From Xiphias gladius (taxonomy: Eukaryota; Chordata; Actinopteri; Istiophoriformes; Xiphiidae): DNA of 64,000 bases. Made by a program: the position numbers and the translations under genes. Where the stretch lies: NCBI RefSeq assembly GCF_016859285.1, contig NC_053414.1, positions 10,674,017-10,738,016 on the forward strand, in the 5' to 3' direction. Shown here one piece after another: positions 24,701 through 58,842 of the stretch. The notes beneath the pieces were generated by a model. The model saw only the letters and a list, made by a program, of their open reading frames with translations. It had not been told where the DNA came from and made no database searches. Position 1 is the first letter of the stretch. Each line of letters starts with the position of its first letter.

Positions 24701-25617
24701 GATCTGAAAAAAAAAAAAAAAAAGATTTCTGTTAGAATTAAGCCAAAGAGCTAATGAATATGTATGTCATACTGGGAGGGAAAGGGGATAAGGCAGCTGT
24801 TGACATGTTATTGGAGAAGGGGAGGAAGACACCAGGAGAGGCTGAAGGACAAGAGCTGGATTCCTGGGATGAGCTCGGCTTCTCTGTCTGCCAACCTGCT
24901 GTTGAAGAGGAAGGCTGCTGCTGCTGTTGCTGCTGACGAAGGAGGTCGCTCAGGACCTGCTTAAGTCTGGAGGACAATGATGACAGAATGTAGAAAATTT
25001 CAAACAATGTACCACTTGGTACAAACAAAGTAGGGTACTTATGTATGCTATTGCTTTTCACCTTTGTACATTGTTTTGCTGCCAAGCCAGCTGGGTGTAA
25101 CACTGGTTGAGCTGGTGCATGACCAAGTGGACCTGTGGTGATGACAAGTTGTTGGGTAACACGCTGTACTGACCTGTCAGCAGGGTTTGCAGCATGTATG
25201 ACAGTGTCTGTGGAAAGAGGTGAGAGACAAAACAAATGATAATTACTGTTTCTTTTGCTTTAAAAAGGGAAAGTTAAATAAAATAAAAGAAACTATACAA
25301 AATCCACTCTGACTTCAAATTTAGTCTAGAAATGTAGGCTTGTGTCAGTTACCAAGATCATTCACTGTCTCTGCATGTGCATATATTTGTTCAGTGCACG
25401 AACCTGCTGGTCCTGCAGGAGTGTCTGACACATGCTGGTGCTGAAATCCAGCTGTCTCTGCAGCTGGCTAACCTGTTCCTGCCAGTGGCATGAGCCCTCA
25501 GCAAAGGAAAGCTCTGAAGCCCATCGCAGGTTTTCTTGCCGTCGTGTACCTCCGTGCTGGCTCGCTGACTGGTTCAAACTTCTGGACTGCTGCTGCTGCT
25601 GCTGCTGTTGCTGCTGC

Positions 25618-25673
<56 letters not shown>

Positions 25674-36559: not shown

Positions 36560-38316
36560 AGTTACGTTCCTACCTGTCACTCTAATGTTAACCTAATGTT
36601 AGATCTTAAAAACAACGGCAAACTTGACGTTTAATGAAGCTAACTCGACCAAAAGAGTTACGTAGCTAGCAGTACTTAGCTACTGTTAACGACGCGTTGC
36701 TCACCATACTTTACAAAACGCTATAACGCTAAATACTAATGTTAACGCTAATGTAATTACTGCAGATAGGTTTTATTAACCCAGTGTGCGCTAACTGTTA
36801 CAGCTAATGGTTAAATGAAAGCATCAAATGCGTAAATTCTTACCAACAGCAGTTAACTTTAGCTAACGTTAACTCTCAAATTAACGACCAGTTTGAAAAG
36901 GAAAAAAAAAATCAGTCATTTACGTTAGTCGTGTAACGTCACTGGCTAGTTTTTGTGACCTGTCCGTTAACGTTAGCTGCCGTTGGGTTTTGTGCGTGGG
37001 GCCCGCTCAGATGCCCGGGTAAAAACAATGAGACATTCCCTCCACCACGCAGCGGGTTAGCGCGAGCTTTCTGTCACTGCTCCCCGAAGGAACAGACAAC
37101 GGCTAACGTTAGCTTAACTGGCATGAAAGTGCAGCGACAACCGATAGAAAACGCGCAGTTAGCTTAAACAAACGTTAAAACGTGAGTGTACGTAGCTTCG
37201 CTCTTCCTTTGAGAACTTTACTAGCCCACCAACTCTAACCTAGTTCCGTCCCACAATCGCCATGGCAACACGCAATAACCCCTATCTGCATCAGCTAACC
37301 CTCTGGTTAACATTACTTTGATTCTCTATCGATAGAAAACCACGACAACAAGCATTAGTAGTGTCCATCGAAAAATAAATAAATCACAAAACCCGATGCT
37401 AACGAGTCGCCAAAGTTGCCAAGCCTGCTTGGGTTGCTGGCTAATGCTACATAGCTTGCTAGCAAATGCAAAACACGGAGCTAACTTTAAATTTCTCGGT
37501 AAAAGTTGACGCAAACAAGTCTTTCATCTGAACTTCAAGCTGAGGATTAGGTTAGTTATCGTGGTAGGCTAGGGTTTGCAAATTATCAGGACTGACCGAC
37601 ATTAACATTATTTGGCTTACGACAAAAGCAGCAGGTTGACAAAATACTGGCTTTTGGTCGTACTAATTAAAACTGCGCTAGCTAAGTTAGCTTACATTTT
37701 AAGACAGAGAAGGTTAATATTACCATACACAGTGAAAAGTGAGGGAAATACAGTTGCCTAGCACTTCATAGATTGCTATAAAGGTTTCACAAATACTCTC
37801 CAAGTCTGGTTAAAGGCATTTGATAAATTATAACGTCTTCTCGGTCCCGAAATGCAGCGAATCGTGGATGTGAGCTTGGCCTGATATAAACACTCCCATA
37901 CAGGAGATGGCGGTATACATCAGCTAATAGTTGCTGTTCGCTCACAGGAAGGAAACAGTAATACTGTCGATCGGTGGTTGTTCTTATAAGAACCCAACCT
38001 GTGTATCTTAACGTGGAGTATGGATGGTTAAACTGCACTGAAGAAAAACAAACAGCTAAGCATTTTTTACACACCCTGACTCGTTCTCGATCTATATCGG
38101 ATTTCGAGTACAGGTTTTCTTTTTTGGCTTAGCACCGAGTGAGTTTTGTCGTCGGTTAGCCACTTAGCCTTCAAAGCTAATGTGAGCTAGTTCGCGAAGG
38201 AAAGCTAACTACATTTTCTTCCCATTAATCTCATCAAAGAGAGACTGTTTGCGCAAGTATAATTTAACCTTGCTGGGTTTTTTGAGTTAGTACTGTTGTA
38301 ACCAGCAGAAGAGATA
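36560..38316. promoter_or_regulatory. Shared head-to-head promoter region of pcm1 (-) and sart1 (+)
   Basis: About 1.7 kb between the pcm1 5' UTR and the sart1 ATG. It is exceptionally rich in ttagc/gctaa and aacgtt words (for example gctaacgttagctt near 37105, and many at 36600-37170, 37430-37460, 37670-37700, 38150-38215). The pcm1 transcript probably starts near 37100-37250. An open minus-strand segment with a good acceptor (37787-38037) is treated in the findings. Confidence 0.5.
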
Positions 38317-40632
38317 ATGGGGTCGTCAAAGAAACATAAGGAAAAGAGCCGCGACAAGGACACAGAAGAGCGCCGTCGCGATCATAAGAAACATCGCCAC
38401 AAGGACCGAGACACTTCGGATCGGGATGGAACTCGGGATAAAGAGAAACGAAAGCGCTCCAGGTCCAAGGAGAGAAGCGGACGAGAGAGTCGCAGCAAAG
38501 GTGAAAAGAGCAGCGGCGAGCCACGAGTGAAAAAGGAGAAAGTTGATCTTGGATATGAGGGAGGCAGTGCAGAAGTGGAACCCCAGTCTGCAAGCGGTGA
38601 TGCATCTCTCAGCATTGAGGAAACAAACAAACTCAGGGCGAAGCTGGGTCTGAAGCCTCTGGAGTTAAACGAAACGAAGAAGGAGCTCGGGACCAAAGAG
38701 GACCCAATGGTGGCTGCAACCATCAACCCTGTTCTCATCCAGCAGCAGAAAGAGATGAGGGAGAAGCTTGCCGCTTTGAAAGAAAAACGCATCCTGAACC
38801 AGAAATTAGGAAAAGTAAAGACCCTAGCTGAGGACGACTGGCTAGATGACACAGCTGCTTGGGTGGAGAAAAGCAGAAAGATGGCAAAAGAAAAAGAAAT
38901 GGCAGAGAAAAGAGCCAAACTTTTGGAGGAGATGGACGAGGAGTTTGGTGTTAGCAGTCTGGTAGAGGAGGAGTTTGCACAAAGCAAAAATGATGCCTAC
39001 ACATCTCGAGATCTAAAGGGACTCAAAGTGCAGCACAAGGTGGAATCCTTCAGTGAGGGTCAGACTGTCATCCTGACCCTAGAGGACAAAGGTGTACTTG
39101 TGGAGGAAGAAGATGTGCTTGTAAATGTGGGGCTGGTGGACAAGGAAAAAGCAGAAAAGAATGTGGAGTTGAAAAAGAAAAAGCCAGATTACAAGCCCTA
39201 TGAAGAAGAAGAGAGTGTGGATGACATGGTGGTGTTAAAGCCCCGCTCTGTTCTTTCAAAGTATGATGAGGAAATTGAGGGCGAAAAGAAAAAGAGCTTC
39301 CGGTTGAATACTGGGGGCTTTGCTGATGGGGAGCGAGAGCGGGAGCTCCAGGTCATGAAAGATACTCTACGAAGTCAGGCCCAGTCGTTGGAAATGCCTG
39401 CTCTCGCTATTGCCTCAGAGTATTACACACCTCAGGAAATGGTGGGCTTTAAAAAGACAAAGCGCCGTGTGAAGAAGATCAGGAAGAAGGAGAAGCAGAC
39501 AGTTGCAGATGAACTTCCCATCGATGACACTCGCAGCTCTGATTTTGGCTCCAGGACACGCGGTCGAGGCCGCAGAAAGGTGGATGACGATGGTGAGGAT
39601 GTAAAGGAGGAGGAGAGCAAACTGCCAGACAATATACCCCAGATGTCTGATGACATCAGGATGGCAGAAATGGACATAAGCGATGAAGAGGACTTCATAC
39701 CTCCTGAGTCAGCTGTAATTGAGGAGGATGAGGCAGAGCAGGAGCTGCAGAAACAACTGGAGAAGCAGAGGAAGCTAAAGCAAAAGCAGCTTCTTAAAGA
39801 CTCTGGGGAGAAGGTTGCTGAGCAGATTAAAGGGCTTGATAAAGGCGAAAGTGACAATGATCCCGAAAGGAGGAACAACATTGTTTTCAACGCCACCTCA
39901 GAGTTTTGCAGAACCCTGGGTGATATTCCAACATATGGACTGTCAGGAAACAGAGAGGACCAAGAAGACATTATGGACTTTGAACAGGAGGAAGAGAAAG
40001 ATGATGCTGGAGATTCAGACTCAGAAATGGATGAGAACGTTGGATGGAGCACAGTTAACTTGGATGAAGAGCAAAAACAACCAGACTTCTCAACAGCCTC
40101 AGCCACCATTTTAGATGAAGAGCCCATTGTCAACTCTGGCCTTGCTGCTGCCTTGCTGTTGTGCAAAAACAAAGGTCTATTGGACACTCAAATGCAGAAG
40201 GTAGCCCGTGTCAAAGCACCAAAGGGCGCCCTGCCCAATGACAACTATTGCATTGAGGACAAGATGGGCTTTGATGACAAGTACAGTCGCAGAGAAGAAT
40301 ACAGAGGCTTCACACAAGAATTCAAGGAGAAGGATGGGTACAAGCCTGACGTCAAGATTGAGTATGTGGATGAGTCTGGGCGGAAACTCACTCCAAAAGA
40401 AGCTTTCAGGCAGCTTTCACACCGATTCCATGGGAAAGGGTCTGGAAAGATGAAGACGGAAAGGCGAATGAAAAAGCTGGAGGAAGAGGCACTGCTGAAG
40501 AAGATGAGCAGCAGTGACACTCCTCTGGGAACTGTGGCTTTACTTCAAGAGAAACAGAAATCTCAGAAAACACCATATATTGTGCTTAGTGGGAGTGGAA
40601 AAAGTATGAATGCAAACACCATCACTAAATAA
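38317..40632 (+). CDS. sart1: SART1 / Snu66 homologue, U4/U6.U5 tri-snRNP protein, single-exon ORF
   Basis: Nuclear splicing factor (yeast Snu66) that sits in the tri-snRNP and is needed to build the catalytic spliceosome. 771 aa in one frame (human 800). Residues 1-80 are Lys/Arg/Ser-rich (RS/KH-like). A HIND helix that binds the ubiquitin-like Hub1/UBL5 is at about 97-116 (LSIEETNKLRAKLGLKPLE). The SART-1 family body follows, with landmarks LVEEEFAQSKNDAYTSRDL, FKKTKRRVKKIRKKEK, IVFNATSEFCRTLGDIPTYG, NVGWSTVNLDEE, DKYSRREEYRGFTQ and the nearly invariant C-terminus ending KSMNANTITK. The ATG is preceded by agagata and gives the conserved MGSSKKH start. AATAAA lies at 40764-40769. The human gene has many introns; none is seen here, yet the frame is intact and well conserved. 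Confidence 0.96.
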   Translation: MGSSKKHKEKSRDKDTEERRRDHKKHRHKDRDTSDRDGTRDKEKRKRSRSKERSGRESRSKGEKSSGEPRVKKEKVDLGYEGGSAEVEPQSASGDASLSIEETNKLRAKLGLKPLELNETKKELGTKEDPMVAATINPVLIQQQKEMREKLAALKEKRILNQKLGKVKTLAEDDWLDDTAAWVEKSRKMAKEKEMAEKRAKLLEEMDEEFGVSSLVEEEFAQSKNDAYTSRDLKGLKVQHKVESFSEGQTVILTLEDKGVLVEEEDVLVNVGLVDKEKAEKNVELKKKKPDYKPYEEEESVDDMVVLKPRSVLSKYDEEIEGEKKKSFRLNTGGFADGERERELQVMKDTLRSQAQSLEMPALAIASEYYTPQEMVGFKKTKRRVKKIRKKEKQTVADELPIDDTRSSDFGSRTRGRGRRKVDDDGEDVKEEESKLPDNIPQMSDDIRMAEMDISDEEDFIPPESAVIEEDEAEQELQKQLEKQRKLKQKQLLKDSGEKVAEQIKGLDKGESDNDPERRNNIVFNATSEFCRTLGDIPTYGLSGNREDQEDIMDFEQEEEKDDAGDSDSEMDENVGWSTVNLDEEQKQPDFSTASATILDEEPIVNSGLAAALLLCKNKGLLDTQMQKVARVKAPKGALPNDNYCIEDKMGFDDKYSRREEYRGFTQEFKEKDGYKPDVKIEYVDESGRKLTPKEAFRQLSHRFHGKGSGKMKTERRMKKLEEEALLKKMSSSDTPLGTVALLQEKQKSQKTPYIVLSGSGKSMNANTITK

Positions 40633-42450: not shown

Positions 42451-42915
42451 TCCAGCATTCATACATGTAGCATTTATAATATATAAATTCGTGCAATCGC
42501 AGCAAACATGAGGTTAGTTTTTAATGTATCGATTCAATGTTTGTTTACATTTACTTAATGGTTTATTATAGATTAGAATATTTGTGGATGTTAACATTTT
42601 TCTTCCAATTTCAAGAACCAGACACTTTAATCAACACATCATTGTGCCTTATATAGCTAATGAATGAATTTTCATTCGTAATAGGATAACCTAATGAAGT
42701 TATGAATCTGGTCATTGACATGCCAATTTACTCTGGGATGCAAGTGTCTGAAGCAACCATCAGACCAGTTTGTGCACACACTTCATGTGTGAAAGGAACA
42801 CTGAGCAGCCTGAGCAGCAGTACGTCCGACAACAAAATATCAATGTAAATCTAGGTTTTGTTTTGTTTTTTTCCTCAGGCTCTAAACTCACCCAGTGAAA
42901 CCACAGGCTGTTCAG

Positions 42916-45900
42916 ATGTCAGAGCCTAAGCCCCCTACTCCAATCCCTGGAGACACATACAAGGGTTGGCTCTTCAAGTGGACTAACTACATAAAAGGTT
43001 ACCAGCGACGCTGGTTTGTTCTGAGCAATGGACTGTTGTCATATTATAGGTAAGTTATATCTAATTTATATGAATTTACAGGATTTTCCTGGACTCAACA
43101 TGTGGCCAAGGTGGTACTTAGCAGGGAGGGACATTGAGGCCATATACCCTAACCATACAGTCTATATTTAAATCTCACTCTTTTTCCCTAATTTAAGTAA
43201 AGCAGCCTTGTGAAAATAAAATGGTTCCACAATATTCCGTACAAACCAGTTATTTAGATCGCTGAGCTTTACCGTCCTTCATTCTGTTTTTCTTCAGGAC
43301 CCAGGCAGAGATGGGTCACACATGCCGAGGCACCATCAACTTGGCCACAGCCAATATTACTGTGGAGGACTCGTGCAATTTTGTCATTTCCAACGGTGGG
43401 GCACAGACGTACCACCTGAAGGCCAGCTCAGAAGTAGAGCGCCAGCGATGGATCACTGCGCTGGAGCTCGCCAAGGCAAAGGCCGTCCGTATGCAGTTAG
43501 AATCTGGTGAGAGGGAAGAAACATTGATTTGAGACATAAAATGAAAATCATATATACTGTAGCTTATAAAGCAGCAGCTATGAGAGGCACAAATGTGTGT
43601 ATTTCTCTGTGTGCAAAGCATTTTCTGGTGACATTTCTTTGTTTTGGTCATATTATCTTCCCTTTCTTCTTCCTTAGATGACTCAGGGGATGATTGTCCT
43701 GCAGTGCCCCCCACCTCAGGACAGGGGGGAGGCTGCCGTAACTCAGAAATCCAGTCCACACTACGGACACTGAGCAGCAAGGTGGAGGACCTCACCACCT
43801 GCAATGATCTCATTGTCAAGCATGGGTCTGCCCTCCAAAGGTAGCAGTTATCCGAGCAGTTTGACTTCTTTTGAAAGAAACAATTTTATTCAAAGAAAAG
43901 AGGGATGGGTGAAGGTCATTTATTTATTTTGTTTGTCTATTTATATGTTCCTTAATGTATTCCTTTATTCTACACACACAGGTCTTTGTCAGAACTGGAG
44001 GGGATTCGTGTCGGAGGGGACATGGGGGAAAAAATCAGACAAGTTACAGAGAGGGCCACACTGTTCCGAATCACCTCTAACGCCATGATCAATGTAAGTA
44101 TTCCCGGTTTAAATCACAGAGGAACACACTACACTGTTGTTGACTCTCTCGCTGACATGTTGCTGTTGTGTTCCCATGCTCCCCAAGGCATGTAGAGACT
44201 TCCTCTCCCTGGCCCAGAACCACAGTAAGCGCTGGCAGAAGGCCTTACAGACTGAAAGAGACCAGAGGATACGGCTGGAGGAGACTTTAGAGCAGCTGGC
44301 TAAACAGCACAATCACTTGGAAAGAGCTTTCAGGGGAGCGACAGTTCTCCCCCCTTCATTCAGCAATCCTGCCTTAGGTAACAAAGGTAAGGCTCTCAAC
44401 CCCAACCGAACCTCCACCTATCAACCGAGGCCAGTTGAGCCTTTTAGTCGCTCATTCATCCACTGTCTTTCTTCACTTTAGCTGGTGTTTCAGGAAAAGG
44501 TGATGCCAGTGACGAGGATGATGACAATGAGTTCTTTGATGCTATGGAAGACCCAGCAGAGTTTATTACTGTCCCTGCTGACCCCAAGTATCACAGGTTA
44601 TTAACTGTCTTTCTTTCTTCAAATGTCAGTATTTGTTTTGTTTTTTTAGTCTGAACTTTTTTCATTGTTTTCTCTCTTTACGTAATGTTTTGTCTTAAAT
44701 TTGCTGCTGTTTTGTCTCTCTGTTCTACAGGAGATCTGGCAGCAACGTTAGTGGGATCAGCAGCGAGATTGGAATGGACGATCAGTCGGTAAATGTGTGT
44801 TAAGTTGGTTTTTACAAGCAAGTCCTGATTTTGTATTGACTGGGCATCTTTTCTGCTTGTCAACACACCAAAGTTACCTGAACCTTAAGGTTGTTTTCCT
44901 TTTCTTCCTTCAGTTTGATGAACTGTCTTTGGCATCCAATCCGGAGTCTCCCCAGCCCCTTGAGCTGGAGCCAGTTAGACAAAGACGGACTCGTATCCCT
45001 GACAAGCCCAACTATTACCTCAATCTGTGGAGCATCATGAAGAACTGTATTGGAAAGGAGCTTTCAAAGATACCAATGCCTGTAGGAAACCCACACACTC
45101 TTTGGCATCTAAGTGTTTTTTTCTTTGATAATAATCAGAAGTAATCATACTTCTTCTCTGTGTGGCTTTGCACCTGCTAGGTGAATTTCAACGAACCCAT
45201 CTCAATGCTGCAGCGTCTATCTGAAGACCTGGAGTACTACGAGCTGCTGGATAAGGCTGCTAAATGTCAGAGTTCTCTAGAGCAGATGTGTTATGTTGCC
45301 GCTTTCACAGTCTCTTCCTACTCCACGACCGTCCACCGCACAGGGAAACCCTTCAATCCTCTGCTGGGAGAAACCTTTGAGCTTGATCGACTCAGAGAGT
45401 GTGGATACCGCTCCCTGTGTGAACAGGTATGTTGAACCAACATCCTAACTAATCAGGGAACACAGTCAACTATGGGCTTTTTGCAGTATATAGCTGTTTC
45501 CCTTTAGACTGAAGTTCTTGTTTACTTCCATGTACGGGATAACATTCAGGTTTTACCAGATTCCAGTTCTAAAAAATAAACATGCTTGAAGTATGTTTAA
45601 ACAAGCATTTTCATATTTATTTTGAACAGGTTCGAGCCATTACATTATCACAATGTTTAATATTTAACTTTGCTACCTCTTCTCTCCCTTCATTTCACTC
45701 ACCTCTTCTCAGGTGAGTCACCACCCACCTGCCGCAGCTCACCACGCTCTCTCTGAAAAGGGCTGGACCCTCAGACAGGAAATTACGCTAGCCAGCAAAT
45801 TTAGAGGAAAATATCTCTCTATCATGCCCTTGGGTGAGTGACTGTGTGTGTTTGTTGAACTGTTTGTTAGTCAGTGCACACTGTGTAAAAAATTAAAATA

Positions 45901-48900
45901 ATTCCTTATTTCTATGGAGTCTCTCATTTATAAGCTCATAACTTCTGTATGTGGGATTCAAGTTAAGTACATTTTCACGGAGCAGGATAAAAATTAAGAC
46001 TGTTGAATGTAACATCATTCCCTCTCTGTCACCAGGTTCTATCCAGTGTCTATTTGATAAGAGCAACAATCACTACTCTTGGAAAAAAGTTACTACAACA
46101 GTACACAACATTATTGTGGGGAAATTATGGATTGATCAGGTAACCCTAAAGCTGAGGAAGTGTTGATTAAACTTATGTTAACATCATTAAACATGTGACA
46201 CAACTACTAACTATTTAAGGAAAAATGAATGACATAGATGTCTTCAGCAAAACAAAAAACAGCAAAACATTTTGTCCCTTTCCGTTCTCTCCTTCCAGTC
46301 AGGGGAGATAGATGTGGTGAACCACAGGACAGGAGATCGCTGCCACCTCAAGTTTGCTCCCTACAGCTACTTCTCCAGAGATGTACCAAGAAAGGTGGGC
46401 TTTTCACATGTATTTTTTTTTCTTTGTATTGTTATTTTATGCTATAGCACTTACTGCATGTGAAACCAGACTTTACAGGGAGATAGAAATGCATAAACCT
46501 ACAGTTTTGGGTGTACCAGTAAATTATAGAGTTTTTTTTTATTTTTTATTTTTTATGACTGGATTGGGCTCTTGGCTGCTTGTTCAGAAATGATTTTGCT
46601 ACCCCGAAACCATGCAGCTATTAATTCTCTTAACTTGTATTACCATCTGTCAGCTTTTTTGATTACATTCTTCACTGAAAGCTATGTTTTTTCTCTCAGG
46701 TAACAGGGGTCGTAACAGATAAGGATGGAAAGGCCCATTACGTGCTGTCGGGAACATGGGATGAGAAGATGGAGTTTTCCAGGGTAATGCAGAGCAGCAA
46801 AGGCGAGAACGGCACTGAAGGCAAACAGAGGACCGTCTATCAGACCCTCAAAGCCAAAGAAATCTGGAGAAAGAACCCTTTGCCGTAAGCTGCTATTTTA
46901 TAGCAAAAGTTGAAAGTGCCTTTAAACAAATGGAGCTGTAGAGGCAGGGCAGTATACTGTGGCTTCGTGCCTGTGATCTTCTATTGTCATGACTTTTCAG
47001 AGAGGGAGCAGAGAACATGTACTACTTCTCCTCACTGGCCTTGAGTCTCAATGAACCTGAAGAGGGAGTGGCGCCAACAGACAGTCGAAGACGCCCTGAC
47101 CAGCGATTAATGGAGGATGGCCGTTGGGATGAGGCTAACGCAGAGAAACAGAGGCTAGAAGAAAAACAGCGCACGGCCCGTCGAGAAAGGGAGAGGGAAG
47201 CCGTTAAAGCAGCCAGCCCGCCAGACGAAGGTAGGAATGGAAAGAAGGCAGCTTGGTTTTGGCTATTTGTCTTGTGTTTCTGTCCAATGTTTTTTTTTTT
47301 TTCTTTTTACTGTTCATACATCTTTTGTCCACTTTGTCTGTCTTGGTATACTTTGTCTGCTTGTCTCTGTCTCAACCCTAAGCTGTCACTGAGGATTCAA
47401 TCAATGACTCACCCTTGAAAAGCAAGTACTCTTCTCTTAGTCTTTTCCCACCGTAGGTCTGCACTTTTTATTGACGCTAGAGTCGAAAACACACATACAA
47501 CATGTTTGTATGTGTAATAAGAAGGTGCTAAATGTCTTCTACATCATCTTGATAACAGCTCATTCACATTTTACTGTCCCTTCATACATTTCTGTTCCAT
47601 TTAGCTGATGCACAGGAGACTGGCACAGAAGCAAGTGAGGTTTCTGATGAAAGCAAGTATCACTTCACAGTTAAACATGAAGTGTACTTTTTAAAGGTGC
47701 TTTGAGTGGCATTTTAACAAAGCAGTGAGTAAGAAATGACCTTGGCATATCCACAGGAGGCCGATGGGCTTCTTTCTCTATTCTAAATGACTTCACAGTT
47801 ACTTAAACCAGTGCTGAGATTTGTGGAGAAAAACTTGCTTTTTGTCACATGCTGTTTGGAACAGGATACGCAAGATTCCCTCACCGGGCATTTTCAACTG
47901 TTCTTGTTCATGGTGGACAGAGCTAAATGTGACAGGTTGACAGAGGTCAGAGGTGATGTAATGCCCATTTTACATTACTAAATTTTTACCACGTGTACTT
48001 TGAAACATCAGTATAATCGGCTTAAACAAATGAGACCAGCACCGAATAAGTTTTGCACTTACATTAGTTTCGACATTACATTTGATAAGAGAGATTAAAT
48101 AGGAAAGTGCCTAATAGTTTTATGGCAAAAAAAAGCATTGATTGACATTTAAAAATGGGAGTAGGGCTGGTCAGTGTGGGGGGGGGGGGCGACTTCAACT
48201 GAAGAAACAGATATTTTCTTTGTAGCATAAAGCAAAGGCATTAATGGGAAACATGGCCATAATTTTAAGAAAAATGTTAGTACTGACGACATACTTACAT
48301 GAGATGGAGGTCAAAAATTGTCTCGACTGTGGCCTCTTTTGTTTATGATGAGTATACTGCCACAAGCAGCACTTTTAAAATGTACACAAACAAGAAACTG
48401 GTGTGGATTTTGGTCTCTGAGTTGTGGATTTACATCTTTCTTTTTGTGCTGGTGTTGCTCAGCTGACACAGAGGAGTCTCCCCCTCATACACCTGTTGCA
48501 TGCAAGTAGCCCCTTACACTTTCACTCACTATTCTTCTTTGTATCAATCATTTTTGGATCATACCCATTCTTTTATTTCTCATCTCCCAAAACTTCATCC
48601 GTCATTCCTCTTTTTCAGCCCCTTATGGACCACCACTCTTCCCTTATTTAAGCAAGTATTCTGGTCATGATGAAACACATACAGTGCAATTATTTGAGGT
48701 TTTCTAGTAATTTAGTAGAATCCAGATTAAAAAATCCTTGTTCATCTTCCATCATTTCCTCTTTACATCCTTTGCAACTTGCTCTCTCTTAGTGGAAGGC
48801 AAGGAAGGTCCTTATGGAGCTCCAGCCAAAAGCAAGTAACATCAGTCCTGCTCTCTATTGCCCCCACCCCCCCTTTTTTTAATTTTTTTTATTTTTTTGT

Positions 48901-49498
48901 TATTTAGCCATGTGTTAATGGTCCTTAGGTACTCTTATTGGGGACTAGCTTTAGCTAACTGTAGAATTTGCACAATAAACCCAGCACTCAAAGATTGTGT
49001 TTTAGTGTAGTATTTGTTAGTCACTGATCAGTATATACTTTGGTTCTGGGCAGTTAGTGCATTCACTGTGAGCCTTGTTCTCTCCTCATGGTACATGATA
49101 GAGAAAGTAATTGGTGTTTTCACCCAATGTGAACCGATATTTTGCCTCCTGCATTCGGTTTGAATAAGATGCATCTGAAGACCACGCAATCGGTAACATT
49201 TAATACTGTTATCTCTATTTCTTAGCCAACTATCTGAAGGCATATTGGCTTAATTTAAGCATGATATGTTGTCATGGCTCAGCGGCTTCCTAACCCTCAC
49301 CTCATGTCCCTCTAAAGCTTCTTCTTGGTGAAAGATGTTCTTTCTTTTCCTCCAGGCGCCCATCAAGACAACCACCATGCACTGTGGTTCGAGAAGCTAG
49401 ACGACCCCGTATCCGGAGAGACCTTGCATGTCTACAAGGGGGGTTACTGGGAGGCAAAGGACCAAGGCAGCTGGGACATGTGCCCTGACATCTTCTGA
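42916..49498 (+). CDS. osbp: Oxysterol-binding protein 1, 15 constitutive coding exons plus candidate mini-exons
   Basis: Sterol/PI4P exchanger at ER-Golgi contact sites. Exons: 42916-43049, 43298-43506, 43678-43840, 43982-44093, 44188-44386, 44482-44596, 44731-44788, 44914-45081, 45181-45426, 45713-45833, 46036-46139, 46299-46394, 46700-46884, 47001-47230, 49356-49498: 760 aa; five in-frame mini-exons between the last two would add 66 aa. PH domain at about residues 13-105 ([20 protein letters not shown]); coiled coil with [22 protein letters not shown] motif EFFDAME at 289-295 after an acidic tract (binds VAP); ORD with the family signature EQVSHHPP at 467-474. The C-terminus CPDIF equals human. 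An in-frame TAA at 42883-42885 supports the start at 42916, so the Gly/Pro-rich N-terminus of mammalian OSBP (about 80 aa) is missing unless an alternative first exon supplies it. OSBP rather than OSBP2 by overall resemblance. Confidence 0.93.
47383..48831 (+). other. osbp: Cluster of five candidate osbp mini-exons with GC donors
   Basis: Segments 47383-47421 (39 nt), 47605-47652 (48), 48463-48501 (39), 48619-48651 (33) and 48793-48831 (39). Each follows a pyrimidine-rich tract and AG, is open in the osbp frame in phase 1-1, has a length divisible by three, and is followed directly by GCAAGTA. Encoded peptides, taking the split first codon from the preceding exon: [66 protein letters not shown], then [12 protein letters not shown] of the last exon. 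They lie in the hydrophilic linker after the ORD. Exon status is inferred from sequence alone. Confidence 0.6.
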
Positions 49499-52175
49499 AC
49501 ACAGCGGAATCAGCCTGTTTCCCTCAGTAGTGTGCAAATGAGAAGATGGTAAGAGGTGGTCTACCTTACATCAGCTAAAGTGGGGAATCAAGCCTGACGT
49601 CAACCCATCTTCAATGTCTGTAGCTTCAACTGATCACCCCCCCCCCCAGCTCCCCTCTATTCCAGCAGAGATTTGCTCAGGATCAAGGGCATGTGGATTT
49701 CACCCTCAACGTAGTAACATTGCATCAGGTTGGTGTTCAGAATCCCCTCTCACTGCCCTGTCAAACACTTTATCTAGGTCTTGGTCTGCTACTTGGTCTC
49801 AGTCCAGGGACCTGTTGTACAGCCTTTGAGTTGCATTTGGCAGTCGGTTATTCTGTTAATGCCACTATGCATTTTCTTTGGAAGCACTATTGTCAGAGGC
49901 AAGATTCATCCCGATGACATCTTATAATATATTAGGTTTGCTTAGACAGAGTGAGCCACTACCTAACATGTAATTTATGTGTTTGTGTTTGTTGTGCACT
50001 CCTTATGTTTATTAATTTCACACTAAATTTATTGCAGCTTCCCCAGAACAGCACCACTGCAAGTCAAAGTCTAAATATACCCAACATTTTCAGTAGTTCA
50101 CACAGTAAATATTCACTACACCAGTTTCAGACCACATCAAATGCAAAAATAGAAAGGCGTCAGTGATACTGACAAAAGTGAGTTCAACAGGTTTTTTTTT
50201 TTTTTTTTCTTAAGGAATTAATTACTAGTATATTTAAGCAATTACTTTAAATGTGAAGTGTCACAAACACCAACATGATACAGAGTTTGCCTTTGAATTT
50301 ATGGTGAATTGCGGTGCTACTTTATTAACTGAAGTGAAACAACAAGTCTAGAGGTATATTATATCTACATATTAGCCTTCTTTTTTTTTTTTTAGTTTTT
50401 GCAGTCAACTAGGCTATTTCAAAATATGTTGGTGATAATAAAGGGCAGTGGTGTAGACCTGTAAAAGTAGTTCATTATGATTATGCCACTCCTCTTCCTG
50501 TAATACTCACTCTTGAAGCATAACATTTCCTTTGTCTTTGAGGAAAAATAATGGTAAACTGAAGTAGTGGTACCAACACAAATTTGTATTGGTACCGATG
50601 AAAATATGAAATACAAAAATATGAATGGCATTCTTGCAAACGACGAGGGAGGAAACATTTGAACGTCAGCAGTTCATTTTAAAGACTGTAGCTGTTGACC
50701 ATCTAATTGAAAGCAGGATCCAGGCCATATTGTCTGATGCAGTGTGTTAGATTTACTTTAATCCTTATGTCTAAGATAAAGTGTGTTAGCAAGTCTGCCC
50801 TGCTCCTCCACCCAAGTACATGAATTTCAGACTTGTATTTTCACACCTAAAGTTTGTAATACTTGGATCAACGATTTCAACGCTGCTTTCAAAGTAAGGG
50901 CTCACAGGACAACGGTTGTTTTGTGAGCCTCTGTTTAGTTGTGACTAAATTTAGAGCAGCAGGGCTGCACTCTAAGTTGTCACTGAGCTGTGCGCGGATT
51001 TCTTCCAGCTTGATGATTAGTTAAGTGATGTGAAATGAGGCAAGTGCTTTTGTCTTCCCGGTTTCCTTCAAACTTATTGACCATAGCTTTAATTTTGAAG
51101 TAGGATATTTTTGTCTTTGTGTTTTGTGACTGTAGATTTTTAACTGACAGCAATAAGAGTGCCTCAGTGCGTATACGTGTGGCACAAAATGTGATATGAG
51201 GGCAGTGTGAGGCAAGACGGCTAAAACTCTCTGTTTGTTGTCTGTCATTTGAGTGGAAGAAGGACTGTGGCTGATGGAATTGTTCATTTCATTTTAATAT
51301 TTAAGTGTACTTAAAAGGATAACACTGAAAATGAAGATCACAAAACATATTGTTGCAAATATTTCTGTTTTAAATATATTAAATAGTAAAGTAATTGTGA
51401 TTTTAACTTGTTATGTTGATAGACAACCTAGGGGCAGTGATGCAGTTTTAATTTTTTTTTTTTTTCTTTGTCATTTTTATTTACTCAGATCTGGAAATAT
51501 TTTCATTGTCTGAAGTGAGTGTACCATGTTACCATAAGTCACCCTTCACAGACTAGGAAAGCTTTATATTTTAAATTATAATCCTTTGTTTTTGATCTAC
51601 ACTGTTCCTTCCTACCGTCAACTTTTGCTTTGTACATCATTTAAACAGATATCTCGATACTAGATTACATCTCTTCAAGTACGGAATGAGTTTACAGGTT
51701 TCTTTCTGTCCTCTCTGTCCTTTTTAATACAATATAATCTTGATTTTTATCCACTGGTCTTAATTGTCTAGCCCAAGCATTACTTCTTTGTTTTTAACTG
51801 TTTCTTAAGTTTATACTTTTTTTTCATCTCTCTTATTGTTTAAGCTATGGTTTTTTTTTTCCCTGCACAAAATGAGACTGAAGGTATTATTGCACTTTAG
51901 TACAGTACATCAGTGATTTAATTTGCCCTTGATTTTGACTGATTAACGGTCAGCTTTTGATGTCCGCTACTGAAGACTTTGTCACTTTGTGAGTTTGTTT
52001 TGGAAACTATTCCTAAACCATGTTCAGTAATTGCAAACATATGTACATAAGTAAAAAATATACATATGTATCACTTTCAGTCTGAGCATACTTTTCCCCT
52101 TTTCTGTCAATTAATTGTTTTTTAAGCAAGATTGTATTAGAGGTTGACAATATTAAAGTCTGTATGGACATGAAG
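49499..52175 (+). other. osbp 3' UTR
   Basis: About 2.7 kb of AT-rich sequence without convincing frames. ATTAAA at 52152-52157 is the probable final poly(A) signal. A (C)n run sits at about 49637-49648. Confidence 0.5.
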
Positions 52176-56800: not shown

Positions 56801-58842
56801 TTCAGTAAAAAAAAGTTATTTTGTAACTGCCTGTATAGGCCTTTTTCACAGAAGACATTTTGACATGTCATAGTAGGAAAAGCACATATGTTAAACAATA
56901 ACTTAATGATGGCTCTGTTCTATTCAAGTGGCCCAGTATGACAGTGAGCCAGCAAATGGAATTCAGCCATCAATAATTTTATTATTTACTGTGTAGGTGT
57001 TTTCAGCGGACGTTATGTACTATTAAGAATGGGTGCAACCCATAACCCCACCAGCATGGTGGCGGTTTGTGCAGGTTGGGTGTTGTTTTCATTCCGTTTG
57101 AATTGGGCACACAAAATGGCACATGCCAGTTACACCAACCCGAATCGCAGGCTCTGTGGGCCACGTAAACAAAATACCCTGTGTACCAACAGCATTGGTA
57201 CAGAGAAAATGAATACATTTGAGTCGGCATGGCTGAATCCAAAAGGTTTTGTAGTGTCTTTGCCGTCACTTACTAGCTGTGCAAAGATAGAATTAAAGTT
57301 TATCACAGCATCTCTAGCACATGCTTCTGTTTGATTCTCAGCAGACAGAGATTCAGCGTCATACCAGCCGTCTCCTTTACCTCCTCCACGCCATTTAAGC
57401 GGGTTTCTCCGGCCTTGCCACAATGTAAAAAAATGGGACGCTGGCATGACCAAATGGAGCGCAGTCAATGATAACGGTGTAATTTGTCCCACCCTTGCAG
57501 GTGCAACAAAGCTAACATGAGAGTGAGGCACAAGGCAATCAAGCACAGTCCATTCACTCCCACCCAGTCACAAAAAGAGGTCTAATTAGCCAAAATAATT
57601 TTAATTGCCTTTGGGGTTGTAGCATGGGTGTGCATGGCCTTTTAAAATTACAGGAAAATAGATCAATATGCGCTTTGTTTCCAGCTGCCTATAGTGTGTA
57701 CCAGTGGAAAAATCTATAGTACTTATGAGGAATCAAGAGATGTGGTGTTTTTTTTTTTTTTTTTTTTTTTGTTGTTGTTTTTTTTGTAAATGTGTTTTCA
57801 TTGTGTTTGTCAAGTAAACAGAACAACAGTTGTTCTGTTTTTATTTAAGGTATGAATCAGCGAAATGGTACAGACGTAGATGCAGCCAACGTGATGAAAG
57901 TGTTTACCAAGTTGGGTTATAAAGTGAAGGTCTACAACGACCAGACAGTCGAGCAGATGAAACAGGTTTTAACTTTGGGTAAGTATAATGTAAAATGACT
58001 ACAAATTACAAATACAAATTAATACTGTGACTCTTTTCCCCCTTCTATATCAGCTCGTATAAAAACATATTGAATACTATACTTTTTTTTTTTTTTTTTC
58101 CCCCCCTTCAGTGTCAAAGGAAGATCACAGCTGCTCTGCCTCATTTGTCTGTGTTCTGTTGAGTCACGGAGATGAGGGTGTGTTCTTTGGTACAGATAGC
58201 TCAATAGAGCTTAAGTACCTCACATCACTTTTTCGAGGTGACCGCTGCAAATCTCTGGTTGGAAAGCCCAAACTCTTCTTCATCCAGGTATTTTAAGAGT
58301 TTGTCCTTTTCCCCCCTCTGCACTAACCTATCTTGGGCTTTGCTAAAGTATGTAACCTGTAACCAGTTCCTGTTCTTTTTGTGTGCACATTGAGTAGGCT
58401 TGCAGAGGCACTGATCTGGATGCAGGCATTGAACCCGACAGCAGACAAGAGGACACTCCCAAGATCCCCGTGGAAGCTGACTTCCTCTACGCCTTTTCCA
58501 CAGCCCCAGGTTAACACTAATACACTCAACAGAGGTCTTTTTGCATATGTATTGTTTCCTTTTTAAATATTGTATTGAAATACCTTTTATTCTATCACTC
58601 ATCCATCTACAGGCTACTACTCATGGAGGAATACTATGACCGGGTCCTGGTTCATCCAGTCGCTCTGCGATATGATAGGCAAATATGGAAAAGAATTGGA
58701 GCTCCTGCACATCATGACACGAGTTAACCACAAGGTGGCAGTAGAGTTTGAGTCTGTCTCCAACTCGCCAGGTTTTCATGCAAAGAAACAAATCCCATGC
58801 ATCGTGTCAATGCTGACCAAAGAGATGTATTTTTCTCCTTGA
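53825..58842 (+). CDS. casp3: Caspase-3, complete, six coding exons
   Basis: Executioner cysteine protease of apoptosis, cytosolic, made as an inactive dimeric zymogen and cleaved by initiator caspases. Exons: 53825-53889, 54194-54327, 57850-57978, 58112-58287, 58398-58509, 58613-58842; 846 nt, 281 aa (human 277). Short prodomain (no CARD/DED). Large-subunit landmarks: [19 protein letters not shown], catalytic His128 in [14 protein letters not shown], and catalytic Cys170 in IQACRG. The interdomain processing site is IEPD at 179-182 (human IETD). Small subunit: [29 protein letters not shown], ending [10 protein letters not shown]. Closest by memory to fish Casp3 rather than Casp7. Intron 2 is 3.5 kb and its donor (GTGTTT) is weak. 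AATAAA at 60283-60288 implies a ~1.4-kb 3' UTR. Confidence 0.95.
54328..57849 (+). other. casp3 intron 2
   Basis: 3.5 kb. Parts with higher GC (about 54895-55140 and 57020-57560) look like old repeat debris but I cannot name them; short open frames there look accidental. A long poly-T tract ends the intron (57749-57786). Confidence 0.55.

Follow-up and report, generated by a model that had tools for sequence, protein, structure and literature searches.

GC 5' splice sites make up less than 1% of the sites in mammalian protein genes and usually keep the rest of the site near the consensus, and GC-AG introns have a known tie to alternative splicing (excerpts of PMC2490688 and PMC7242645). Regulated splicing of the nematode gene let-2 requires a C at +2 of the donor (excerpt of PMC2490688). 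A GC donor also follows the mouse Snap23 microexon, the inclusion of which is regulated; a C-to-T change resulted in complete inclusion in a minigene (excerpt of PMC12064062, where microexons measure 51 nt or less). Human GC sites carry G at both -1 and +5 and lie outside both site classes of PMC11732430, the excerpt of which also reports that a change of the -1 G to A or C at the GC site of BRCA2 intron 17 disrupts splicing. In fission yeast, the splicing of introns that combine A at +4 with a weak exon end relies on the m6A of U6 (excerpt of PMC8163875). GC donors without a G at -1 are expected to fail. Here, we describe six candidate sites of this kind in two osbp genes of a fish. Neither osbp mini-exons nor an array of GC-donor mini-exons was found described in the open-licence PMC literature that we searched.

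Five short segments in the last osbp intron

The osbp gene is located on the plus strand, from approximately 42.9 kb to 49.5 kb of the window (i.e., the whole stretch of 64,000 nt that was analyzed). Ten exons between 44188 and 47230, which were placed by eye, join without a stop codon, and their donors are all GT. The product contains an Oxysterol_BP domain (PF01237; E = 1.1e-137; residues 161 to 498 of 620; Pfam), and its best solved relative is human OSBP1 (7v62_A; E = 3.7e-199). The joined frame also includes EFFDA (exon 44482-44596), which we take to be the FFAT-like motif of the OSBP family. Both exons that flank the last intron align to the human OSBP1 chain 7v62_A, namely, the penultimate exon, with the open frame EGAENMYYF...SPPDE, and the last coding exon, which corresponds to residues 361 to 404.

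Table 1. Features of the 3' part of osbp (positions in the window; a slash marks the exon-intron boundary)
Feature	Position	Strand	Length	Phase	Residues	Splice site or end
Penultimate exon (basic gene model)	47001..47230	+		ends phase 1		donor AAG/GTAGGAAT
Last intron	47231-49355	+	2125 nt			
Mini-exon 1	47383-47421	+	39 nt	1-1	(A)+12	donor AAA/GCAAGTAC
Mini-exon 2	47605-47652	+	48 nt	1-1	(T)+15	donor AAA/GCAAGTAT
Mini-exon 3	48463-48501	+	39 nt	1-1	(T)+12	donor CAT/GCAAGTAG
Mini-exon 4	48619-48651	+	33 nt	1-1	(S)+10	donor TAA/GCAAGTAT
Mini-exon 5	48793-48831	+	39 nt	1-1	(M)+12	donor AAA/GCAAGTAA
Last coding exon	49356..49499	+				acceptor TTCCTCCAG; ends CPDIF, stop

The first-pass annotation had proposed that the last intron holds five open segments of 33 to 48 nt, all divisible by three, in phase 1-1, behind usable acceptors and directly before GCAAGTA, and this was confirmed for all five (Table 1). 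Positions -20 to -5 of the acceptors are 62% to 88% pyrimidine, and a competing AG is absent from -17 to -4. In total, the segments comprise 198 nt, or 66 codons, in agreement with the proposed maximum of 66 residues. The claim that any combination preserves the OSBP frame likewise proved correct, with the normal C-terminus reached by 32/32 inclusion combinations, as did the statement that the other donors are GT, at least for the ten osbp donors from 44188 on. Like microexons, the segments are short (33 to 48 nt), internal, and frame-neutral. Mini-exons 1 to 3 would encode acidic, Ser/Thr/Pro-rich peptides, and mini-exons 4 and 5 would encode Pro/Gly/Tyr-rich ones. Their partial similarity to one another (see below) is absent from the first-pass annotation, as is a second, GT donor within mini-exon 2.

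The position of the segments after the sterol-binding domain, also part of the original proposal, is supported by geometry. The human OSBP1 chain aligns in a first stretch up to residue 355 (EAMKAT) and in a second one from residue 361 (YDPYKALWF), leaving five residues unaligned (356 to 360; EDGTP). The mini-exons fall in this gap, beyond the end of the Pfam Oxysterol_BP match, and presumably in a surface loop. We consider it probable (roughly 0.7) that the five segments are cassette mini-exons with weak GC donors that lengthen the stretch before the last segment of OSBP. If this reading is correct, fish vary by splicing the stretch between the OSBP sterol-binding domain and the conserved C-terminal segment; inclusion may be regulated and combinatorial, and the inserts may act as the tunable linker that was originally proposed.

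Chance expectation, a second osbp gene, and the origin of the array

GCAAGTA occurs 9 times in the window, compared with 10.1 expected; of the eight plus-strand copies, five lie within the 2125-nt last osbp intron, and all five close a mini-exon segment. None of 1,000 introns simulated under each of four Markov models contained five copies (maximum, 3). Acceptors and donors are individually common, and other 7-mers cluster too: five copies within 1450 nt are attained by 17 words (34 entries, as each is listed for the two strands), of which 7 lie over a CTG repeat near 25 kb, 4 in a SART1 frame, and 3 elsewhere, while 3 represent the GCAAGTA motif. However, an acceptor 30 to 51 nt upstream with an open, phase-1 segment divisible by three was found at 3.4% of the plus-strand sites outside the last osbp intron and the ten exons (2048/60153) versus 5/5 here, under a 30- to 51-nt rule that was set after the five segments were known. 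Given an acceptor at this distance, 18% of random sites (2048/11125) are open and divisible by three, from which five of five by coding potential alone would be expected about 2 times in 10,000. A wider rule (in-frame segments of 24 to 60 nt with a G[TC]RAG donor) yielded six candidates in the last intron, i.e., the five segments and the second donor in mini-exon 2, versus no more than 4 in 3 x 2000 simulated introns and no more than 3 in any of 240 real stretches of equal length. A chance arrangement within an ordinary intron is thus hardly credible, since simulated introns, site-background counts, and real stretches all fall short, and a second osbp copy makes chance very unlikely for mini-exon 1.

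Two of the regions with clustered words have features of their own. The SART1 frame (38302-40632; plus strand) runs for 776 aa from stop to stop without introns; in the 696 aa tested, it covers PF03343 model positions 1 to 585 of 585 and includes the HIND motif. Human SART1 has many introns, so that this locus may represent a retrocopy that has stayed intact or a fish gene that lacks introns. At 25587-25672, about 29 CTG units read as a long glutamine run on the minus strand, in what we assume to be a pcm1-like coiled-coil gene; the fragment of this gene had no Pfam match.

Searching the genome (assembly of 690.8 Mb; 1298 contigs) with the 76-residue exon 47001-47230 identified three places: this gene, C12 (89% identical), and C20 (74%). 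In the C20 gene, which appears to be of the osbp2 type, GCAAGT is absent from the sense strand of the 9.4 kb examined. Matches between the C12 gene and window ORFs extend over osbp from 42886 to 49495. Its last intron (285 nt) contains one GCAAGTA, which closes an open, phase 1-1 segment of 39 nt behind an acceptor (donor A/GCAAGTA; predicted junction at C12:10467753). The encoded peptide, (A)VDEDSLTDPSLK, is the counterpart of the (A)+12 residues of mini-exon 1; mini-exons 2 to 5 have no counterparts in the C12 osbp gene. The two segments are identical at 27/39 bases (0/5000 shuffles). In global alignments to the C12 segment, the score of mini-exon 1 was reached by 0/2000 shuffles, and those of mini-exons 2, 3, 4, and 5 were reached by 143, 6, 95, and 19 of 2000, respectively; for mini-exon 2, no clear relationship to the C12 segment is seen.

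Nei-Gojobori estimates for mini-exon 1 versus its C12 counterpart, on 13 codons only, were dN 0.23 and dS 1.55; the last exon gave dN 0.25 and dS 1.84, and exon 47001-47230 gave dN 0.07, with no dS estimate obtainable. Synonymous sites are thus near saturation, yet the length and donor of mini-exon 1 were kept, which suggests that it is probably functional. On this comparison, mini-exon 1 is very likely to be a genuine coding exon that is conserved and has an atypical GC donor, and the initial proposal of coding mini-exons with GC donors gains its support for mini-exon 1 from this counterpart. Mini-exons 2 to 5 are probably real as well, considering their geometry, common donor, and partial mutual similarity.

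In local alignments, the flanks of mini-exon 1 resemble those in C12 no better than shuffled sequences do (150 and 520 of 1000 shuffles). At fixed positions, 11/20 bases before the mini-exon are identical (64/5000 shuffles), as are 14/20 at +8 to +27 past the donor motif (101/5000), a likeness that declines when 30 or 40 bases are compared (340 and 645 of 5000, respectively). Counted on the sequences, 5/6 differences at +8 to +27 exchange C and T within a pyrimidine tract; pyrimidines represent 77% and 87% of +8 to +37 in the two genes, compared with 52% on average in the region. No such tract follows mini-exons 2 and 4 (53% and 47%). We take the likeness downstream of mini-exon 1 to reflect a kept pyrimidine tract, which, we assume, could recruit TIA1-like factors.

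Read past their donors, mini-exon 1 (47422-47456; plus strand) and its C12 counterpart have similar tails. This likeness is also what would be seen if the segments were alternative last exons, with the donor ignored and with a nearby stop codon and an intronic poly(A) site. Continued reading meets a stop codon after CK in mini-exon 3, after SK in mini-exon 5, and within 20 codons in the other three; AATAAA is located at 48974 (past mini-exon 5), and ATTAAA is located at 48094 and 48726 (past mini-exon 4). However, the one AATAAA and two ATTAAA of the intron are not commoner than the ~1.9 and ~2.5 expected from the 56 and 74 copies on the window plus strand, and neither hexamer occurs in the C12 last intron. 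Moreover, GCAAGTA is fixed at the nucleotide level across Tyr and stop codons, which a protein reading leaves unexplained, and the predominance of C/T changes past the donor points to the pyrimidine tract. Alternative last exons are accordingly an improbable explanation, and cassette mini-exons remain the preferred one.

Over 66 residues, the two osbp genes share 61, compared with 52 and 51 shared with human OSBP1, which suggests that they probably split after the fish-tetrapod split. An origin of the C12 copy in the fish whole-genome duplication was also considered, and the comparison of neighbors gave no support for it: with window ORFs of 35 aa or longer and E values up to 1e-6, all 35 match rows at C12 10.37-10.57 Mb lie in osbp, and no shared neighbors were found there. 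For a caspase-3-like exon of the window (58063-58296; plus strand; PF00656), the next best copies lie on C9 and C23, with 0/9 on C12.

Among the five mini-exons, global alignment scores were reached by 0/500 shuffles for 1 versus 3 and for 2 versus 3, by 8/500 for 1 versus 2, and by 389/500 for 4 versus 5. Local alignment gave 0/1000 for 4 versus 5, which have CCTTATGGA.C.CCA in common and not more, and 13, 19, and 123 of 1000 for 1 versus 3, 2 versus 3, and 1 versus 2, respectively. The six pairs across these groups (1 to 3 versus 4 and 5) were reached by 65 to 260 of 500 shuffles globally and by 260 to 974 of 1000 locally. The common GC donor is most simply explained by derivation from a single ancestral mini-exon; the weak point of this explanation is that mini-exons 4 and 5 are not clearly related to mini-exons 1 to 3 beyond the donor. 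Homology of the flanking introns was rejected: in 20 comparisons among the five, the best scores were reached by 1, 8, 8, 9, 25, and 30 of 300 shuffles, and the other 14 were reached by 66 or more. An origin in a repeat or transposon was likewise rejected for mini-exons 3 to 5, as a 411-nt query spanning these three (mini-exons 1 and 2 lie outside it) matched only itself in the genome. No relatives in viral contigs were confirmed.

Register and strength of the putative donors

All five segments have GC at +1/+2 and an AG acceptor. The columns identical across the five donors are -9, -2 (A), and +1 to +7 (GCAAGTA), and the conserved block therefore begins at the proposed intron boundary. With the C12 site, which also reads GCAAGTA, all six sites have G at +5 and a strong +3 to +6. 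The base at -1 is A, A, T, A, and A in mini-exons 1 to 5, in agreement with the first-pass annotation (A or T rather than G), and A in C12, so that the human-consensus G is found in 0/6 sites.

An alternative is that the same mini-exons are spliced at CAA/GTA, so that single inclusion would swap or truncate the C-terminus. The first-pass annotation was right that this use would make each segment 1 mod 3 and wrong in placing the GT two bases further on; it is four bases on. This register has the usual GT dinucleotide, CAA/GTA is kept in 6/6 sites, and single inclusion in the window opens an alternative C-terminus of ~45 residues. An approximate donor scoring matrix prefers the shifted donor at 2/5 sites, 48651 and 48831. 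However, G at +5 would be found in 0/6 sites, positions +4 to +6 would vary, and the invariant block would occupy -4 to +3, an unusual place. Furthermore, the shifted frame in C12 stops after SKLTS, so the alternative tail is not conserved, and the common tail ALWF...CPDIF would be lost. Use of GC joins both genes to the common C-terminus and use of the shifted GT does not, which favors GC as the donor. We consider splicing at CAA/GTA unlikely, if the least unlikely of the alternatives discussed here.

With GC as the donor, the block GCAAGTA is complementary to U1 except at +2, and -1 is never paired. The best duplexes with the U1 5' end have energies of -2.8 to -3.3 kcal/mol for the five GC donors versus -4.0 to -11.2 kcal/mol for the ten GT donors, whereas the matching positions of the GC donors (7 to 8 of 11) are not poorer than those of the GT donors (5 to 8). 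The poor U1 pairing proposed initially thus stands by duplex energy, in which these are the weakest of the sites compared, and not by the count of matching positions. On the approximate matrix, the GC donors score 0.5 to 2.6 versus 3.8 to 11.4 for the ten GT donors; with T at +2 they would score 6.6 to 8.7, inside the GT range, so it is the C at +2 that makes them weak on this matrix. Mini-exon 2 may have a second, stronger donor, an internal in-frame CAA/GTGAGG after 47634 (8.1 on the same matrix; U1 energy, -5.1), which would produce a 30-nt form (47605-47634).

A variant U1 snRNA of this species with a base complementary to C at +2 or to A at -1 would account for the odd motif common to all sites by making them strong. 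We rejected this candidate, which we now regard as highly improbable: in a genome pattern search for best-scoring candidates with up to 3 mismatches, which more diverged variants could escape, 45/45 U1-like 5' ends among the matches listed begin ATACTTACC and are canonical over the first nine bases. The U1 snRNA genes (at least 45 matches) form tandem arrays at C7:29225771-29243861 and on C806, mostly about 1.64 kb apart.

Concealment of the donors in local RNA structure was also rejected, as the five donor stretches rank at the 38th to 62nd percentile of the region in their probability of being unpaired, which is ordinary. Inverted repeats cover the donor ends of mini-exon 2 (47650-47669 / 47822-47841; 80% complementary) and mini-exon 5 (48824-48836 / 47252-47264; 92% complementary) and could, by their complementarity, mask these two donors.

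Such weakness is also what decoy or decaying exons would display, i.e., exons that formerly had GT donors and are now rarely or never used or that only slow the removal of the last intron. Every donor deviates from the consensus at two positions, the predicted U1 duplexes are the weakest of those compared, and the scores would be ordinary (6.6 to 8.7) if +2 were T. Decay, however, would not leave 5/5 segments open and divisible by three, nor would it keep the peptide and donor of mini-exon 1 in two genes at a near-saturated synonymous distance, and C at +2 in 6/6 sites requires either one ancestral GC or selection. This explanation consequently appears quite improbable, marginally more so than that of alternative last exons.

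On the cassette reading, a 39-nt ancestor that already had the GC donor would be older than the osbp gene duplication, and the array would then have grown in this copy, at least partly by local duplication (1 to 3; 4 and 5). The intronic side of the donor (AAGTA; +3 to +7) would pair fully with U1, and +4 to +6 would suit the ACAGA box of U6. The C at +2 and the absence of a -1 G would make recognition too weak for default inclusion, with skipping as the default and inclusion dependent on proteins bound nearby or on abundant splicing factors. Each inclusion would add 11 to 16 residues behind the sterol-binding domain and ahead of the conserved C-terminal segment, leaving both unchanged. A broader and more tentative proposal, to which we assign somewhat less than an even chance, is that GC 5' splice sites without a -1 G, in the form of A/T followed by GCAAGTA, constitute a functional class, which predated the split of the two fish osbp genes and multiplied with its exon to five copies in one of them. 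The result would be a combinatorial set of up to 32 C-terminal linkers, governed by the weakness of the donors and not by mutual exclusion.

Comparison with known splice sites and exons

The osbp sites share with GC-AG introns of the major spliceosome a GC donor, an AG acceptor, and a perfect AAGT at +3 to +6. They differ from human GC sites in having a -1 G in 0/6 cases and in occurring five in a row in one intron. The human -1 G consensus and the BRCA2 result count against the GC-donor reading, with six sites lacking this base. With G at +5 and no G at -1, the osbp sites fit neither of the human patterns in the excerpt of PMC11732430. The U6-favoring NN//GURAG sites are similar to them in the absence of AG at the exon end, the strong AAG at +3 to +5, and the A at +4; because +2 is C in all six sites rather than U, the osbp sites lie outside this class as it is defined in the excerpts of PMC11732430 and PMC8163875. 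All six sites have A at +4 and exon ends other than AAG, and, by analogy with the yeast introns, dependence on METTL16 is a fair prediction. Six sites with one motif, one of them kept in two old gene copies, represent natural material for studying how U1, U5, and U6 divide the recognition of the 5' splice site.

Like tandemly duplicated exons, the osbp mini-exons are short neighbors of equal phase, and some of them are alike. The similarity is weak and partial, however, and nothing forces mutual exclusion of the kind treated in the excerpt of PMC5740500, as any mix is in frame. Of the helper motifs known from Snap23, the QKI motif ACTAAY was found near 0/6 sites and the RBFOX motif TGCATG at 1/6, in mini-exon 3, where it overlaps the donor junction; the motifs that drive Snap23 are thus not common to the osbp sites, and Snap23 has one such exon versus five in osbp. 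Like the osbp mini-exons, however, the Snap23 microexon is short and has a rare, weak GC donor, and by this analogy, it is the nearest parallel to the array described here.
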